Shown here in pieces: positions 5,524 through 58,546 of a stretch of DNA of 64,000 bases. How positions within the stretch are numbered: the stretch's first letter is position 1; every line of letters starts with the position of its first letter. The position numbers and the translations under genes are program-made. The DNA is taken from NCBI GenBank assembly GCA_021787475.1, contig JAJYLW010000007.1, positions 38,304 through 102,303 of the forward strand, written 5' to 3'. The notes under the pieces are model-generated. The model was not told the DNA's origin. It worked only from the letters and a program-made list of their open reading frames with translations, and ran no database searches. The stretch is from Actinomycetes bacterium (lineage in GTDB: Bacteria; Actinomycetota; Thermoleophilia; BMS3ABIN01).

Positions 5524-5596
5524 AAAAAAGCTCCCGCAGTTAGCTGCAGAAGCCATAAGTCCCTGGGGACGTTTTAGGCGAGCTTCATCGCCTCAT
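5524..5596 (-). promoter_or_regulatory. fluoride riboswitch (crcB motif) with terminator, copy 1
   Basis: Minus strand reads 'GGCGATGAAGCTCGCC', TAAAAC, hairpin GTCCC-CA-GGGAC, then 'TTATGGCTTCTGCAG', a close match to the fluoride aptamer consensus with an intact GAAGC/GCTTC pseudoknot. The aptamer 3' strand overlaps a terminator, 'GCTTCTGCAG' - CTAA - 'CTGCGGGAGC' followed by six T (5524-5553). The dynamin ATG lies six bases after the T-tract, and the only purine-rich site (GGGAG) is inside the terminator stem, so both transcription and translation could be controlled by ligand. Confidence 0.92.
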
Positions 5597-5658
5597 AAAA
5601 TATGCGCTCTTTAACAGGAAATATAACAGTTCGGCCCCTTTTGGGCAAGATTTCTTTC

Positions 5659-9765: not shown

Positions 9766-9862
9766 TAAGAGCCAGCCCATTTGGGTGTTGGTGGCGCCGA
9801 GCGAAATGCTTTTATGGCTTTGCGGCCGGCCGCAGCAGAAGATGCTCACGGGATATGCTCCA
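9766..9862 (+). repeat. GAGCC element, copy D (internally deleted)
   Basis: Begins 'TAAGAGCCAGCCCATT', contains 'GCGGCCGGCCGCAGCAGAA' and ends with 'GGGATATGCTC'. These pieces match the ends and inner part of the full 184-bp copy at 21516-21699, with the middle missing. It lies about 20 bases after the stop of the ATPase pseudogene. Confidence 0.6.
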
Positions 9863-13925: not shown

Positions 13926-13972
13926 GGGCTTGCCTCGACCTGCCTATGTCCGGCCGGCTCCGCGGCAAGCCC
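13926..13972 (+). repeat. palindromic intergenic repeat, family 1, copy 1
   Basis: 'GGGCTTGCC' and 'GGCAAGCCC' form perfect 9-bp arms around a conserved core containing 'CCTATGTCCGGCCGGCT'. It lies between korA and pyrE, in the korA 5' leader region. Close copies are at 39723-39771 and, more diverged, 53772-53822 (both inverted). Confidence 0.75.
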
Positions 13973-14059
13973 CTCGCATCATCATTTTTTCTGAATATCA
14001 TGAGTGAAGAGGATGTCAGTCTCCATTTTTCTGCCCGGGCGGCGCGGACGGGCAGAGAC

Positions 14060-20464: not shown

Positions 20465-21511
20465 ATGCCCACCCTCCACATTAACCTCGCCAAGATCGAG
20501 CATAATACACGCCTGATTGCGGACATGCTCCGGCGGCACGGCGTCAGGCTGGTGGGCGTCACCAAGGCGTGCCAGGGAAATGAGCGCGTGGCCGGGGCAA
20601 TGCTGGCCGGAGGCGCGGCAGCGCTGGCGGACTCGCGCGCCACCAGCATCGATAATTTGCGCGCCCATTTTCCGAATGCCGAGCTGGAGCTGATGCGACC
20701 CGTCATCGAAGCCGGAAACCTTTCCGCCGCCGCGGATATCTTTTTTGTCTCGACTGAGGCGCAGGCACGGACAATGATGCAGCTTTTCCCGGCCCGGCCC
20801 ATCCGCTTCTGCCTGATGGTTGAGGCGGGCGACGGCCGCGAAGGCGCGCCGCTGTCGGTGGCGACGCGCGAAGCTGCCTGTATCGCCTCGCTGGCCGGCG
20901 CCGAGCTGGCAGGGCTGGCGACAACGCTTGCCTGCGTCCGGCCTCAGGCCCCGCTGGCCGGAGCGATGGAGGCGTTTTCCCGGGCGGTTGCCGAAACCGA
21001 TGGCCTGTTTGAAGAAACAGATCGCGCCTCGGACTCCAGGGCTCCTCTTGTTTCAGTAGGCGGATCCGGCCTGCTGGCGCTTTTTGATGAGAGGGGCGCC
21101 CGCCCGGGGCTACCGGGCGGGCGCCCCTCTCCCCTGGGGACGGCCACCGAGCTGCGCTCCGGCGAAGCCATTTTGCTGGGAAGTCTTCCTTCCGATCGGG
21201 ACGGATTGTTTCTCTCCGGCGCTCACAGCGATGCCTTTCGTATTGAAGCGCCGGTGCTGGAGGCATTCGAAGCCGGCGGCGGCATCCGGGCCGTTGCCGG
21301 CATTGGCATCCAGGACGTGGGCCTGGGGCGGATAATTCCGGCCGGGGAGGGAATTGAACCGGTGGGGATTACCAGCGATTACCTCATCTTGCAATGCCCG
21401 GCTGCGGCAAAGGAGTATTGCGCCGCCGGCGCATCCGTCTCTTTCATTCCCACCTATTACTCCCTCCTGGCGGCAATGACCTCGCCATACGTTGAGAAAA
21501 TCTTCCATTAA
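20465..21511 (+). CDS. alanine/ornithine racemase-family PLP enzyme with palindrome insertion
   Basis: A 348-residue fold-type III PLP enzyme resembling YhfX/ornithine racemase rather than Alr. The PLP lysine lies in 'LVGVTKACQGN'; 'ELELMRPVIEAG', 'VSVGGSGLLALF' and 'TELRSGEAILLGS' are family landmarks. A second, canonical Alr is encoded at 27897. Between 'LALFDE' and 'ATELRSGE' there are about a dozen extra residues ('RGARPGLPGGRPS') encoded by a perfect palindrome, which looks like an in-frame insertion into a loop. A TTGACA at 20416-20421 may be the -35 of its promoter; the -10 is not clear. Substrate uncertain. Confidence 0.8.
   Translation: MPTLHINLAKIEHNTRLIADMLRRHGVRLVGVTKACQGNERVAGAMLAGGAAALADSRATSIDNLRAHFPNAELELMRPVIEAGNLSAAADIFFVSTEAQARTMMQLFPARPIRFCLMVEAGDGREGAPLSVATREAACIASLAGAELAGLATTLACVRPQAPLAGAMEAFSRAVAETDGLFEETDRASDSRAPLVSVGGSGLLALFDERGARPGLPGGRPSPLGTATELRSGEAILLGSLPSDRDGLFLSGAHSDAFRIEAPVLEAFEAGGGIRAVAGIGIQDVGLGRIIPAGEGIEPVGITSDYLILQCPAAAKEYCAAGASVSFIPTYYSLLAAMTSPYVEKIFH
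21089..21131. repeat. 19-bp perfect inverted repeat inside the racemase gene
   Basis: Left arm 'GAGAGGGGCGCCCGCCCGG' (21089-21107), loop ggcta, right arm 'CCGGGCGGGCGCCCCTCTC' (21113-21131). It is read through in frame and adds residues not seen in relatives. Confidence 0.9.
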
Positions 21512-21515
21512 GAGC

Positions 21516-21699
21516 TTAGAGCCCATCCCATTATGCATTTTCTGCTGCGGCCGGCTGCAAAAGCCATCGGCGGCGTCCTCGGAGAAAAAAGTCCTCGACG
21601 TACCTACAGGTACGACTGCGGTCTTTTTCCTCCTGCGTCCTTGCCCATGGCTTTTTCGCCCGCCCTCGCTACGAACAGCCCAATGGGATAGGCTCTTAA
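21516..21699 (-). repeat. GAGCC element, copy C (most complete, 184 bp)
   Basis: Ends are terminal inverted repeats: 'TTAGAGCCCATCCCATT' at the left and 'AATGGGATAGGCTCTTAA' at the right. The inside includes a perfect hairpin 'GTACCTACAGGTAC' and 'CTGCTGCGGCCGGCTGCA'. No ORF is convincing. It begins five bases after the racemase stop codon. Confidence 0.75.
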
Positions 21700-21702
21700 G
21701 CT

Positions 21703-21782
21703 GAGCGAAAGTTTATAGGCAAAGACGCAGCTAATGGCCTCTGAGCCGGCCGCAGCAAGAAACACGCCGGGGTAGGCTCTAA
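21703..21782 (+). repeat. GAGCC element, copy E (partial, inverted relative to C)
   Basis: 'GAGCGAAAG', 'GGCAAAGACGCAG', 'GAGCCGGCCGCAGCA' and terminal 'GGGGTAGGCTCTAA' match the other half of copy C read in the opposite direction, so the two copies sit tail to tail before glmM. Confidence 0.6.
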
Positions 21783-21816
21783 TCTGTCAGACCGCAGCGA
21801 AGCGCCCCGCCGGCTC

Positions 21817-21825
21817 TGTTATAAT
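21817..21825 (+). promoter_or_regulatory. extended -10 promoter for glmM
   Basis: TGTTATAAT, a TGn extended -10 with a perfect TATAAT, 51 bases before the glmM ATG. No good -35 is present, as is common with extended -10 promoters. Confidence 0.55.
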
Positions 21826-21876
21826 TTGGTCCTTGGGAATTTCCGGCCGATTAGCTTCTTTCACCACGAGGATTTC

Positions 21877-23208
21877 ATGATACGCAAGTTTTTTGGCACC
21901 GATGGCATCCGCGGAACCGCCAACACCGCCCTCTCTGCCGAGCTGGCGATGGCGGTGGGCCGGGCGGCAGTGGCCGTCCTGCCTGGGGATGCGCCAATGG
22001 TCCTGATCGGGCGCGATACTCGCGTCTCCGGCTCCATGCTTGAAGCGGCCCTGGTCGCAGGCATCAACTCCGCCGGCGGCGCGGCCATGAGCGCCGGCGT
22101 CATTCCCACGCCGGCGGTGGCCAGCCTGGTCGTTTCCGAGGGCGCCGACGCGGGCGCCGTCATCTCCGCCTCCCATAATCCCTATCAGGACAACGGCATC
22201 AAATTTTTCGGCCCTTCGGGTTTTAAATTCAGCGATGCTCAGGAGCTGGAGATGGAGAGCTATCTGGCAGGCGATGAGGCGATGCCGCCGCTGCCGGCTG
22301 ATCCCGGGCCGGGCTCCTTCATTGATAATCCGGTGGCGGACTATGTGGACAACCTGCTTGGCGGTTTCGATCTTGACCTTTCCGCGTTGAACATTCTCGT
22401 CGATTGCGCCAACGGCGCCACCTTCCGCTCCGCGCCGCAGGCTCTTAAGCGTCTGGGCGCCAGTGTCGCCCTTATCAATGCGGCGCCGGACGGCTTCAAC
22501 ATTAACCGCGACTGCGGTTCCACCCACATCGGGGCGCTTCAGGCGGCGGTCCGGGCGGACGGCTTTGATCTGGGGCTGGCCTTCGATGGCGACGGCGACC
22601 GCGTCATCGCCGTCGACGCCGGCGGCGATGTGGTCGACGGCGACTTCATTATGGCGATCTGCGGCAGGTATTTAAAAGAAAAAGGGCGCCTGCCCCGGAA
22701 CACGATCGTAACCACGGTGATGACAAACCTCGGCTTCCACTTGGCGATGAAGGAGCTCGGCATTGACGTGATCACCACGGATGTGGGAGACCGTTACGTG
22801 TTGGAAGAAATGCTTGCGGGGGAATACGGGTTTGGCGGCGAGCAATCCGGGCACATAATAAATCTTGAGGCCAGCACCACCGGCGACGGCCTGGCGACAT
22901 CGCTGCTGCTGCTTCAGGTGATCGCTGAGACCGGCTTGCCGCTGACAAAGCTGGCCCGGGTAATGCGGCGCCTGCCGCAGAGGCTCGTTAACATACAGGT
23001 GGAGAAGCGTCAGGAACTTGATAGCAAATCAGAAATTTGGGATACAATTGAGGAGGAAGAAGGGCGGCTGAAAGGTGAAGGCCGCATCCTGGTGCGCCCC
23101 TCGGGAACCGAGCCTGTCATCCGGGTGATGGTCGAAGCCGCCAGAGTTGATATTTGTGTTGATATTTGTGAAACTATTGCTGTGGCAATCAGGAAAAATT
23201 TGGGGTGA
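21877..23208 (+). CDS. glmM: phosphoglucosamine mutase
   Basis: A 443-residue alpha-D-phosphohexomutase that converts glucosamine-6-phosphate to glucosamine-1-phosphate for peptidoglycan precursors. 'FGTDGIRG' starts the protein, 'SASHNP' carries the phosphoserine, 'DGDGDR' binds Mg2+, 'GEQSGH' is the sugar-binding loop and 'RPSGTEPVIRVM' the phosphate-binding loop. The ORF-track start 17 codons earlier is replaced by the ATG at 21877, which has a GAGG site. It is followed by glmS, the preceding enzyme of the same pathway. Confidence 0.95.
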   Translation: MIRKFFGTDGIRGTANTALSAELAMAVGRAAVAVLPGDAPMVLIGRDTRVSGSMLEAALVAGINSAGGAAMSAGVIPTPAVASLVVSEGADAGAVISASHNPYQDNGIKFFGPSGFKFSDAQELEMESYLAGDEAMPPLPADPGPGSFIDNPVADYVDNLLGGFDLDLSALNILVDCANGATFRSAPQALKRLGASVALINAAPDGFNINRDCGSTHIGALQAAVRADGFDLGLAFDGDGDRVIAVDAGGDVVDGDFIMAICGRYLKEKGRLPRNTIVTTVMTNLGFHLAMKELGIDVITTDVGDRYVLEEMLAGEYGFGGEQSGHIINLEASTTGDGLATSLLLLQVIAETGLPLTKLARVMRRLPQRLVNIQVEKRQELDSKSEIWDTIEEEEGRLKGEGRILVRPSGTEPVIRVMVEAARVDICVDICETIAVAIRKNLG

Positions 23209-23307
23209 GTTAGATGAATGACTGGCGAAAACCAGTTTTTTGGATGAATTTGGTTTATTTGGCTTCAGGTTTGACCGGTCTACGATCCTGGGATGGCCGC
23301 CTCCGGT

Positions 23308-23350
23308 TTTGTCCACCATCCACCGTCGACAATCAACCATCCGCTTTTTC
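23308..23350. repeat. heptanucleotide tract before glmS (ATCCACC type)
   Basis: 'TCCACCATCCACCGTCGAC' followed by 'AATCAACCATCCGC': degenerate 7-base units ending directly at the glmS ATG. A similar tract lies at about 1730-1761. Confidence 0.6.
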
Positions 23351-30723: not shown

Positions 30724-31609
30724 TGACGATCTCTCGCCGGGCGAGTCCGCCGCTTCGGCGATCGTCATTGACGGCCTTTACAAGGCTTACGGCTCGGTCA
30801 GCGCCCTGTCCGGCGCTACGCTTGCTGTTGACGCCGGTGAGATATTTGGTCTGGTTGGCCCCAACGGCGCCGGCAAGACGACACTGATCAAGGCGATTTG
30901 CGGCGTCCTCAAGCCTGATCGGGGCGCAGTCCGGGTGCTGGGGCTTGACTCCGGCCGCGACCGCCACGCCGTCCGCCGCCGCCTGGGTTACATGCCGCAG
31001 GAGCCGGCCCTTTACGAGGATCTCAGCCCCCGGGAGAACCTTGCTTTTTTTGGCAGCGGCTACGGGGCCGCCGGCCTGGAGCAGCGCATCCGCGACTCGC
31101 TGGAGTTTGTCGGGCTTTGGGAGCGGCGCGACGATCCCCTCCACACCTTTTCCGGCGGCATGCGCCAGCGCGCCTCGCTTGCCTGCTCCCTGCTGCGCGA
31201 CCCGGAGCTTCTCATCCTCGATGAGCCCACCGCCGGCGTCGATCCCACGCTCAAGGCAGCTTTCTGGGAGCATTTCCAGGGGTTGAAGCAGCGCGGCGTC
31301 ACCATTTTTCTGACCACCAACATGATGGATGAGGCCGTCCGCTGCGACCGCGTCACCGTCATCCAGGGCGGCCGCATCCTGGTAACGGAAACGCCGGACG
31401 CCATCCGCGCCCGGGGCAGGACCAGGGTGAGGCTGGAGCTGGCCGGCGGCGTCATCCGGGAAGCCGAGATTGGCCGCTACGAGGAGGAGTTGCCGCGCCT
31501 GCTGACGGACTACGGCTTAAGCGGCGAGGTCCGGCGGATCAGCATTCACCGGCCAAGCCTGGAAGATGTGATCCTGTCGATGATCGAAAACCGAAATCCG
31601 GATGGTTGA
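30710..31609 (+). CDS. ABC transporter ATP-binding protein
   Basis: A 299-residue ABC-2-type exporter ATPase. Walker A 'GPNGAGKTT', Q-loop 'YMPQEPALYEDLS', signature 'FSGGMRQRASL', Walker B 'LLILDEPTAGVDP' and the H-loop region are all intact. A C-terminal extension of about 70 residues is like that of drug or lipid exporters (DrrA/CcmA type). The start is ATG 30710 ('MFTPSDD'). The matching permease follows after about 150 bases. Confidence 0.92.
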   Translation: MFTPSDDLSPGESAASAIVIDGLYKAYGSVSALSGATLAVDAGEIFGLVGPNGAGKTTLIKAICGVLKPDRGAVRVLGLDSGRDRHAVRRRLGYMPQEPALYEDLSPRENLAFFGSGYGAAGLEQRIRDSLEFVGLWERRDDPLHTFSGGMRQRASLACSLLRDPELLILDEPTAGVDPTLKAAFWEHFQGLKQRGVTIFLTTNMMDEAVRCDRVTVIQGGRILVTETPDAIRARGRTRVRLELAGGVIREAEIGRYEEELPRLLTDYGLSGEVRRISIHRPSLEDVILSMIENRNPDG

Positions 31610-31700
31610 TGGTGGAGGGTGGATAAAACCGAGTACGTTTCAAGTTTAACGTTTCACCTTTAATGCGGGGAAGATTCCAAGTGAAATGTTAAACGAAAGA
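31600..31700. repeat. heptanucleotide words and inverted repeat between ABC genes
   Basis: 'GGATGGTTGATGGTGGAGGG' is followed by 'GTTTAACGTTTCAC' and, 27 bases on, its near-perfect inverse 'GTGAAATGTTAAAC' (13 of 14). The same GTTTCAC/GTTTAACG words recur at about 40568-40620. Confidence 0.55.
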
Positions 31701-35672: not shown

Positions 35673-35737
35673 CTTATCCTAGTCCATGGACTTTTCGCTC
35701 GGCCTCGCCACGAATTACCTGCCGGGAAAGGCTCTTA
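35673..35737 (-). repeat. GAGCC element, copy B
   Basis: Minus strand reads 'TAAGAGCCTTTCCCGGCAGG' then 'TAATTCGTGGCGAGGC', almost the same as copy A at 49833. The TAA is the stop codon of the nicotinate phosphoribosyltransferase gene. Confidence 0.7.
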
Positions 35738-39640: not shown

Positions 39641-39722
39641 CAGGCAAACAAATGCAAAACGACCTAAAAGGTGATTGATCATCTTATCCACTCAGGATAA
39701 TCAGAAAAAAATAATGATGCGA

Positions 39723-39771
39723 GGGGCTTGACGCTGAGCCGGCCAGACATAGGCAGATCGAGGCAAGCCCC
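39723..39771 (-). repeat. palindromic intergenic repeat, family 1, copy 2
   Basis: Minus strand 'GGGGCTTGCCTCGATCTGCC' then 'TATGTCTGGCCGGCTCAGCG' and 'TCAAGCCCC'. It matches copy 1 over its whole length with few changes; arms GGGGCTTG/CAAGCCCC. Confidence 0.75.
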
Positions 39772-47958: not shown

Positions 47959-49834
47959 ACTGCCTAAAATATTTGACAACCGCTACGAGATTGTCAGGCT
48001 GCTTGGCAGCGGTGGCATGGCTGATGTCTATCTGGCCCGCGACATTCACCTCGGCCGTGAGGTGGCGATCAAGGTTTTGTACGGGCGCTACTCCCGCGAC
48101 GAGGAGTTCGTCACCCGCTTCCGCCGTGAGGCGCAGGCGGCCGCCGGCCTCAACCATCCGCACATTGTCAGCGTTTATGACCGGGGCGAGTCGGACGGCA
48201 GCTATTATATCGCCATGGAATACCTGGAGGGCAAGAGCCTCAAGGAGCTGATAGCGGAAAAAGGCCGCCTGCCCACCGACAAGGCCATCTTCGTCGCCCG
48301 GCAGATCCTGCAGGCGCTCCAGTTTGCCCACGAGCACAACGTCATCCACCGCGACATCAAGCCGCAAAACATTGTCATCAACGGCCGCGGGCAGGTAAAG
48401 GTCACCGATTTCGGCATCGCCCGGGCTGGCGCCTCGGCCAAGATGACGGAGACGGGCTCCATCCTGGGGACGGCGCAGTACCTGTCGCCGGAGCAAGCCA
48501 AGGGCAAGTCGGTTGAGCAAAATTCTGATATGTATTCCGTCGGCATAGTCCTTTACGAGATGCTTACCGGCCAGGTTCCGTTTGAGGGAGAGAACCCGGT
48601 GGCCATCGCCCTGAAGCACATTAGCGACGAGCCGGTTCCGCCGCAGGCGCTGGTGCCGTCGATCCCCGACAACCTGAATACGGTCGTCATGAAAGCGCTC
48701 GCCAAGGACGCCCACGACCGCTACCGGACCGCTGAAGAGTTCATCGCCGATCTGGAGCGGTGCCGCGCCAACCTGCCGGTGTCGCCGGCACCCGTCGCCG
48801 CCGCCCGGACCACAATCATCCGTCCCGAAGCGCGCCGCGCTGATCCGGCCAGCGCCACCATGGTCAGGCAGGCGCCTGCTCCTCAGGAAAAAAAATCGCG
48901 CCGGAAGTGGCTTTATCTGCTCATCCTGCTGGCGGCGCTGGCGCTGGTGGGGGCCGGTGTTTATCTTCTCGCTTTTGCCCAGCAGACTGTCATGATTAGC
49001 GTCCCCAACGTGGTCGGCATGTCCCAACAGCAGGCGGAGAACACCATCAGGAATCAGGGGCTTCAGCCTGCCGTTGAGTCGCAGGAATTCAGTGACACCG
49101 TCCCGGCGGGCGCGGTTATCAGGCAGGATCCGCAGGCCAGTGCCCGGATCAGGAAAGGCGGCACTGTCAACCTAGTGATTAGCAAGGGAAGCGATAAGGT
49201 GGCGGTTCCGGACGGACTGACGGGGGAGACGGCCGGCTACGTGGAGGATAAATTGAAGGAAGCCGGCCTGAATCCGGAGCGCCTGCCCGACGCCTACGCC
49301 AGCTCGGTTGACGCCGGCAACGTCATCTCGGTTGACCCGCCCTCGGGAACCAAAGTGCAAAAAGGATCGACGGTCAAGTACACGGTCAGCAAGGGGCCCG
49401 TGCCGCCGAAGCAGGTCACCGTCCCCGATGTGACCGGCCTCACCCAGTCAGACGCGGTGGCGAAGTTGGGCGACGCCGGTTTGAAAACCGGCGATATCAC
49501 GCAGCAGTATTCCGATACCGTCCCCAACGGCGAGGTGATCAGCCAGAATCCGGCTGCCGGGCAGACGGTCAAAGCGGGAGATACGGTGGGCCTGGTCGTG
49601 AGCGAGGGGCAAAAACCGCCGGCCAAGGTTGCCGTGCCGGACGTTACCGGCATGAGCCAGGCAACCGCCGTTTCAACCCTGTCGGCAGCGGGTCTGCTGA
49701 CGACGGTCACGGAAGTGGCGACGGCGGACCCGACGCAGGTGGGCGTGGTTATGCAGCAGAACCCGGCCGCCGGCACGATGGTCAACGTGGACAGCACCGT
49801 GGCGATCACAGTGGGAAAGAAGTCAGGTCCGTAG
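47951..49834 (+). CDS. pknB: PknB-like Ser/Thr kinase with four PASTA repeats
   Basis: A 627-residue membrane kinase. Cytoplasmic kinase domain (1-270): 'LGSGGMADVYLARD', 'VAIKVLYGRY', 'VIHRDIKPQNIV', 'VTDFGIARAG', 'YLSPEQAKG'. A juxtamembrane linker leads to one TM helix (about 317-339), then four PASTA repeats beginning 'VPNVVGMS', 'VPDGLTGET', 'VPDVTGLTQ' and 'VPDVTGMSQ', which bind muropeptides in this family. Substrates probably include FhaA, FhaB and the cell-wall enzymes encoded beside it. The stop codon TAG is also the first triplet of a GAGCC repeat. Confidence 0.96.
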   Translation: MPELPKIFDNRYEIVRLLGSGGMADVYLARDIHLGREVAIKVLYGRYSRDEEFVTRFRREAQAAAGLNHPHIVSVYDRGESDGSYYIAMEYLEGKSLKELIAEKGRLPTDKAIFVARQILQALQFAHEHNVIHRDIKPQNIVINGRGQVKVTDFGIARAGASAKMTETGSILGTAQYLSPEQAKGKSVEQNSDMYSVGIVLYEMLTGQVPFEGENPVAIALKHISDEPVPPQALVPSIPDNLNTVVMKALAKDAHDRYRTAEEFIADLERCRANLPVSPAPVAAARTTIIRPEARRADPASATMVRQAPAPQEKKSRRKWLYLLILLAALALVGAGVYLLAFAQQTVMISVPNVVGMSQQQAENTIRNQGLQPAVESQEFSDTVPAGAVIRQDPQASARIRKGGTVNLVISKGSDKVAVPDGLTGETAGYVEDKLKEAGLNPERLPDAYASSVDAGNVISVDPPSGTKVQKGSTVKYTVSKGPVPPKQVTVPDVTGLTQSDAVAKLGDAGLKTGDITQQYSDTVPNGEVISQNPAAGQTVKAGDTVGLVVSEGQKPPAKVAVPDVTGMSQATAVSTLSAAGLLTTVTEVATADPTQVGVVMQQNPAAGTMVNVDSTVAITVGKKSGP

Positions 49835-49898
49835 AGCCTATCCCGGTGGGTAATTCGTGGCGAGGCAGCAGCAGGATACACCTGTCGGGATAGGCTCT
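49833..49898 (+). repeat. GAGCC element, copy A (66 bp hairpin)
   Basis: Perfect 12-bp arms 'GAGCCTATCCCG' (49834-49845) and 'CGGGATAGGCTC' (49886-49897). The inside 'GGTAATTCGTGGCGAGGC' is shared with copy B. Starts in the pknB stop codon; could act as its terminator. Confidence 0.8.
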
Positions 49899-53606: not shown

Positions 53607-53771
53607 TTACCGGTTGACAATGGTTTTGTCTTTATTGATTGTACAACCCGCTCAGGATAGCCACGGAAATGCATTGTTGCGGCTCTGCCGGGATTTGGCC
53701 GCAGGGAGGCCGCAGCAAAGCAAGCAGGACGGGCGGGGTTTCCAGCAAGGATTGTCTGTCTGAGCCCCGCA

Positions 53772-53822
53772 GGGGCGAGTTACGCAGCCGGCCGGACATG
53801 GGCAAGTCCAGGGCAATCCCCC
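53772..53822 (-). repeat. palindromic intergenic repeat, family 1, copy 3 (diverged)
   Basis: Minus strand keeps the core 'CATGTCCGGCCGGCTGCG' flanked by 'GGGGATTGCCC' and 'CTCGCCCC'; arms no longer pair well. Confidence 0.55.
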
Positions 53823-57922: not shown

Positions 57923-58546
57923 TTGGCCAAGAAGCGTTACGCAATGGTGATTGACATGCGCCGCTGCATTGGCTGTCACGCCTGCACGGTTGCCTGTAAG
58001 GCAGAGATGGCGGTGCCGCTTCAAGTCAACGCCACCTGGGTCAAGATCGTTGAGAAGGGACCCTATCCCTCCGCCCGCCGTTTCTATCTCCCCCGGCTCT
58101 GCAATAATTGCACCAATCCCATCTGTGTCCGCAACTGCCCCACCCAGGCTTCCTACAAGCGCGACGACGGCATTGTCGTTGTTGATCCGCACCGCTGCAT
58201 TTGTTGCAAATACTGCATCGCCTCCTGCCCGTATGACGTCCGTTACGTCAACCCATTCAAGGAGATCGTGGAGAAGTGCTACTTCTGCCAGCACCGCGTC
58301 GACGCCGGGCTGGAGCCCGCCTGTGTCGAAAGCTGCCCCACGAGGGCGATGGTCTTTGGCGACCGCAACGACGACAAGAGCGAGATCTCACAGCTGCTGG
58401 CGTCCAACGCCACTACCGTGCTGAAGAAAGAGATGGAAACGGAGCCGAATGTTTATTACATCGCCGGCGATGAGACGGCAATGAGCAATGATGAGAAGGG
58501 TATCAATTACCGTGCTGAAGGGGCGTTCATCAATCTGCGTCTCTAG
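57923..58546 (+). CDS. PsrB/NrfC-type 4x[4Fe-4S] electron-transfer subunit
   Basis: A 207-residue iron-sulfur protein with four cysteine clusters: 'CIGCHACTVAC', 'CNNCTNPICVRNC', 'CICCKYCIASC' and 'CYFCQHRVDAGLEPACVESC'. This is the electron-wiring subunit of complex iron-sulfur molybdoenzymes, passing electrons between NrfD and the molybdopterin-family subunit. No signal peptide; it would be exported with its Tat-bearing partner. The ORF starts with TTG; an ATG seven codons later (57944) is an alternative. Confidence 0.92.
   Translation: MAKKRYAMVIDMRRCIGCHACTVACKAEMAVPLQVNATWVKIVEKGPYPSARRFYLPRLCNNCTNPICVRNCPTQASYKRDDGIVVVDPHRCICCKYCIASCPYDVRYVNPFKEIVEKCYFCQHRVDAGLEPACVESCPTRAMVFGDRNDDKSEISQLLASNATTVLKKEMETEPNVYYIAGDETAMSNDEKGINYRAEGAFINLRL

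Follow-up and report, generated by a model that had tools for sequence, protein, structure and literature searches.

What are the short inverted-repeat sequences that recur at gene ends in this actinobacterial genome, and why do several of them touch stop codons? A preliminary description of the window (the whole 64,000-nucleotide stretch of DNA analysed here) listed six copies or fragments and called them MITE-like. We conclude that the repeats are very probably non-autonomous DNA transposons, a MITE family that inserts at TWA and behaves as selfish DNA. All six places are genuine, both on direct reading and in a profile search derived from full-length copies. They comprise one full-length copy, one internally deleted 64-bp hairpin, one decayed copy, and three halves (Table 1). 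The lengths of 66 and 184 bp first given for two of them included flanking bases; the exact values are 64 and 177 bp.

Table 1. Element copies, target-site duplications, and an empty site in the window.
Feature	Position	Remarks
Full-length copy, 177 bp	21519-21695	Ends GAGCCCATCCCATTATGC / GAGCCTATCCCATTGGGC; arms 15/18 identical, 17/18 pairable with G-U
Left target-site duplication of full-length copy	21516-21518	TTA
Right target-site duplication of full-length copy	21696-21698	TTA
Second copy, truncated	~21700-21779	Adjoins the full-length copy; left end lost; right end GGGGTAGGCTC, then TAA
Decayed copy, internally deleted	9769-9860	TAA precedes, CAA follows
Half copy	35676-35734	Followed by TTA (35735-35737), the pncB stop TAA on the minus strand
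64-bp hairpin, internally deleted	49834-49897	18-bp arms pair completely; first G completes pknB TAG (49832-49834)
Half copy, left end only	53877 to ~53930	Right limit approximate; TAG precedes
Empty site	58543-58546	Orthologous place in G001 (L066:2287-2339) holds a 53-bp copy, at the same gene's native stop

The reality of the element rests on the element as a whole and not on its short end motif. Alone, the end motif is not above chance in the 64-kb window (22 found versus 18.95 expected, allowing 2 mismatches). The whole element, in contrast, folds far beyond shuffled sequences (RNA-fold z-scores of -6.95 and -5.97) and has 46 blastn matches in its own genome (best non-self E=1.7e-54), so that the genome-wide search proposed at the outset does return further copies. 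The full form, of ~177-180 bp, is a hairpin from end to end on either strand. Shorter forms of 53, 64, 68, 77, and 121 bp keep both ends, in agreement with the internal deletions already reported. The terminal inverted repeats are 18 bp long, and the elements, at 53-180 bp, contain neither an ORF nor a transposase gene; both properties are those of a MITE.

The flanking sequences show how the element inserts. Among 81 unique copies, the flanking triplets are TAA/TAA in 24, TTA/TTA in 20, and TTA/TAA in 4, with the remainder altered on at least one side. Both triplets are identical in 44 of the 48 copies that can be scored (TAA or TTA at both ends). This pattern is a 3-bp TWA target-site duplication of fixed length, as is typical of MITEs. 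The wider target context is YTWAR: Y stands before TWA, and R after it, in 28 of 35 cases each.

We also find two orthologous empty sites with both flanks mapped, one for a 177-bp copy and one for a 53-bp copy. Where the window's genome (G000) carries the former (C10:97715-97891), the relative G001 is empty and a single TTA remains. Conversely, the 53-bp copy lies in G001 and its site in the window, at 58543, is empty, though the duplication there has drifted. Relatives likewise lack an insertion at the window's racemase-glmM and pknB sites. Dispersal in many copies, together with empty orthologous sites, is again what a MITE family displays. Thus, the original MITE-like label, and the remark that no transposase lies inside, are borne out by the duplications, empty sites, deletion forms, copy number, and absence of an ORF.

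From the ends, duplications, and empty sites that we observe, we infer a transposase acting in trans, which would recognise the 18-bp ends, cut at TWA, and leave the 3-bp TAA/TTA duplication. The whole element forms one long hairpin, and internal deletions within it yield the forms of 53-121 bp that retain both ends.

Three coincidences with stop codons had been pointed out in the window, and all of them hold. The pknB TAG consists of TA plus the element's first base, the pncB TAA is the target-site duplication itself, and the racemase TAA (21509-21511) lies 4 bp upstream of the duplication. Comparison with orthologues places the pncB and pknB stops at an unchanged codon position and the racemase stop no more than a residue or two away. 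These coincidences have a simple explanation. Insertion into a TAA stop copies the stop, and insertion into a TTA that overlaps a TAR stop creates TAG from TA and G, because the element begins with G. The gene is unharmed by either route, since insertion rebuilds the stop. This provides a simple rule for elements on stop codons: a TWA target and a leading G always restore a stop. We considered whether the exact stops could instead mark truncated genes and rejected the idea, because an in-frame TAA duplication implies that TAA was present before insertion and because the tested orthologues agree.

To quantify the association, we took the 35 copies with identical duplications, removed the element and one duplication, and then called genes. 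The statistics that follow cover loci together with ~0.8 Mb of sequence, drawn from the surroundings of known copies in G001 and by contig in G000, and they are approximate because gene calling used a simple longest-ORF method. On this basis, the native stop is the exact target in 10 of the 35 reconstructed targets versus 357 of 3739 other non-genic TWA sites (OR 6.3, p 6e-5), and insertions avoid genes (OR 0.14). The stop excess is modest when the comparison is with TWA lying up to 60 bp downstream of stops (OR 3.3, p 0.03) and not significant once the YTWAR context is fixed (2.3). A general preference for the 3' ends of genes accounts for part of the native-stop excess. What can be said safely is that insertions cluster on YTWAR sites at the 3' ends of genes; the suggestion that the repeats insert at gene ends is confirmed statistically, by both native-stop and gene 3'-end enrichment. 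We attribute the stop-codon association to a stop-restoring target combined with this bias to gene 3' ends.

The two arms of the element vary in step with each other. Its 18-bp ends (GAATCTATCTCAAAAGGC, GAGCCTATTTCGATAGGC, GAGCCTATCCCATTAGGC, and relatives) fall into three main types. The arms of a given copy match each other at a mean of 16.4 of 18 positions, compared with a maximum of 14.6 when arms are shuffled among copies. Over the consensus structure, two-sided changes affect 20 of 36 pairs, whereas shuffles give 14 at most, and 95.5% of cells are paired, against no more than 89.8 in shuffles; the arm and pair shuffles leave the relatedness between copies in place. Genome-specific core variants, such as GGAAAAAGTCC in G011, are found by eye with both end types, and the core of some copies resembles the other end type just as closely; ends and core therefore seem partly independent of each other. 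This uncoupling might stem from recombination between subfamilies or from hairpin-templated correction. Conservation across end types is higher in the core than in the ends, an unusual pattern for a MITE that counts against that reading. What most distinguishes the family is its co-varying ends and its stop-restoring target rule. As a separate observation, some MITE copies, at L017 and L023 (match regions near 1501), have a different repeat (GGATATTGGATTTTGGATAAAAC...ATATCCAAGGTCCAAAGTCCGG) inserted within them.

A more elaborate proposal is active targeting: stop codons or gene 3' ends would be sought out by the element or by its transposase (e.g., through DNA structure or transcription-coupled exposure), the leading G would be kept for rebuilding TAG, and the matched, changing arms would be maintained by hairpin-templated (quasipalindrome) correction, letting the ends diversify around a constant core. 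We regard this as doubtful. If true, active seeking of stops with a TAG-rebuilding G would constitute a stop-codon-safe targeting strategy. The benefit of the MITEs to the host is most likely nil, consistent with selfish DNA.

Which transposase moves the MITEs? One with matching ends had been proposed as a target for further search, and none emerged from searches with PF01609, PF13359, PF13586, and PF05598 and with paired end motifs; the search covered four Pfam families in draft MAGs, in which a partner may be missed. With these four families, G000 gives no match, G001 gives a single IS1182-type IS, and the other genomes give remnants or unrelated copies. The IS in G001 (L107:1278-2865, on C44) is complete, with a 468-aa open frame, ends GAGCCTGTCC, and a TATA-rich target. 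Pairs of end motifs 0.3-3.5 kb apart were considered as possible autonomous copies; the pairs inspected proved to be separate MITEs flanking ordinary genes, for example ones that from their sequence we take to be gmk with rpoZ, hisS, rpsI, and a biotin carboxylase. Many accepted MITEs are without a known autonomous partner, and in the genomes searched no autonomous element shares the ends of this family.

Our best guess for the putative mobiliser is a member of the IS5/PIF-Harbinger superfamily, because that superfamily makes TWA duplications. Its members generate 3-bp TNA/TWA duplications and have ends that begin with G. The family described here resembles MITEs derived from them in both respects, with its 3-bp TWA duplication measured directly. 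The genomes searched, however, hold only IS5-type remnants that lack these ends, and no such transposase with matching ends.

The MITE could alternatively be a deletion derivative of an IS1182-type IS, moved by the IS1182-family transposase at L107, but we think this unlikely. No other IS found in the searches made combines similar ends with an intact transposase: the L107 ends begin GAGCCTGTCC, which differs from GAGCCTATCC by one base, and GAGCCTGTCC is also the reading of some MITE copies. The similarity nevertheless stops after ~10 bp instead of extending over the full length of the ends, and the IS is flanked by TATAG and TATATATAG, with no TWA duplication. The related IS1272 also differs from the MITE in that it replaces stem-loops and leaves no target duplication (PMC5678879). 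Furthermore, the IS is present in one copy in G001 and absent from G000.

Less probable again is a host-recruited 3'-end element, in which the hairpin would act as a transcription terminator or mRNA stabiliser and be kept at gene ends by selection. The strong hairpin on either strand, the enrichment of insertions at gene 3' ends, the two-sided changes, and a AAAAAGTCC/GGGCTTTTT core that resembles the stem of a bidirectional terminator are all compatible with such a role. However, a scan of one region (21400-21950) for intrinsic terminators, i.e., a G+C stem followed by an unpaired T-run, finds none. In the full form the T-runs lie base-paired within the hairpin stem, the short forms are without a T-run, and the 64-bp form has no U-tract, which leaves the earlier suggestion of use as terminators unsupported. 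Selection for a host function also fits poorly with copies that are mostly decayed fragments in the window's genome, and with insertions that, at the sites tested, G000 and G001 do not share. Spread as REP-like palindromes by a RAYT (a Y1 transposase) instead of a DDE transposase is highly improbable: REPs and BIMEs are likewise palindromic, intergenic, and often beside stop codons at gene 3' ends, but REPs are much shorter and without terminal repeats and target duplications, and the 18-bp terminal repeats, clear 3-bp duplication, and exact empty sites found here are unlike products of HUH/Y1 transposition.

The closest known systems to the MITE family are Correia/NEMIS and ERIC/IRU, small hairpin MITEs of Neisseria and enterobacteria, with Correia elements of 155 bp in full and 107 bp when internally deleted (PMC2229807). 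Like the window family, these are non-coding, intergenic elements of <200 bp with terminal inverted repeats, a TA-containing duplication, a long stem-loop, and both full and deleted sizes. The window family differs in its sequence, its 3-bp TWA duplication, its several co-varying end types around one core, and its confinement to one actinobacterial family. Hairpin MITEs of such size with TA-containing duplications are already well known; what is new here is the family. Rfam covariance models give no relevant match, and the element is not found in phage, plasmid, or viral-contig collections. By this comparison the family is apparently undescribed, as had been proposed, and it brings a well-documented MITE family to light in an uncultured actinobacterial lineage.

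The distribution of the family is narrow. A 188-bp query finds copies in four of the five same-genus genomes tested and in one further genus belonging to the same bacterial family, and gives no match at 1e-6 in the remaining genomes among 60 relatives. Of 399 genomes of the class, 7 contain the end GAATCTATCTCAAAAGG (≤1 mismatch), and these 7 all belong to that bacterial family. Roughly 100 or more copies are present in one same-genus relative. The family is abundant in G001 (191 end motifs with ≤2 mismatches, plus 43 of the second type) and G011 (66 plus 11), and mostly decayed in the window's genome. G001 and G011, which are bins of sample DBS2-1 from different genera, carry the same two end types in quantity, and the same-genus G004 carries none. 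This sharing points to exchange between co-occurring genera or to recent activity common to both, although mis-binning is possible. Several G001 end motifs lie within ~130 bp of a contig start, and these repeats may therefore break metagenome assemblies of these species.

Other features are present nearby. A second repeat family (CCTCGACCTGCCTATGTCCGGCCGGCTCCGCGGCAAGCCCCTCGCATCATNATTTTTTCTGA...) occupies positions 13926-13990 and 39706-39770 of the window, in inverted orientation and 92% alike, with a related stretch at 53771-53812; it is also found on contig C12 and in G001. In places it adjoins MITE copies (53771 beside 53877; L012 and L023). A third short repeat (TCCACCATCCACNGTCNACCATCCACCATCCGC) occurs in the window at 1722-1766, 23305-23349, and 31594-31624, with several copies in both G000 and G001. 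The window also contains a fluoride riboswitch (RF01734) on the minus strand at 5540-5601.
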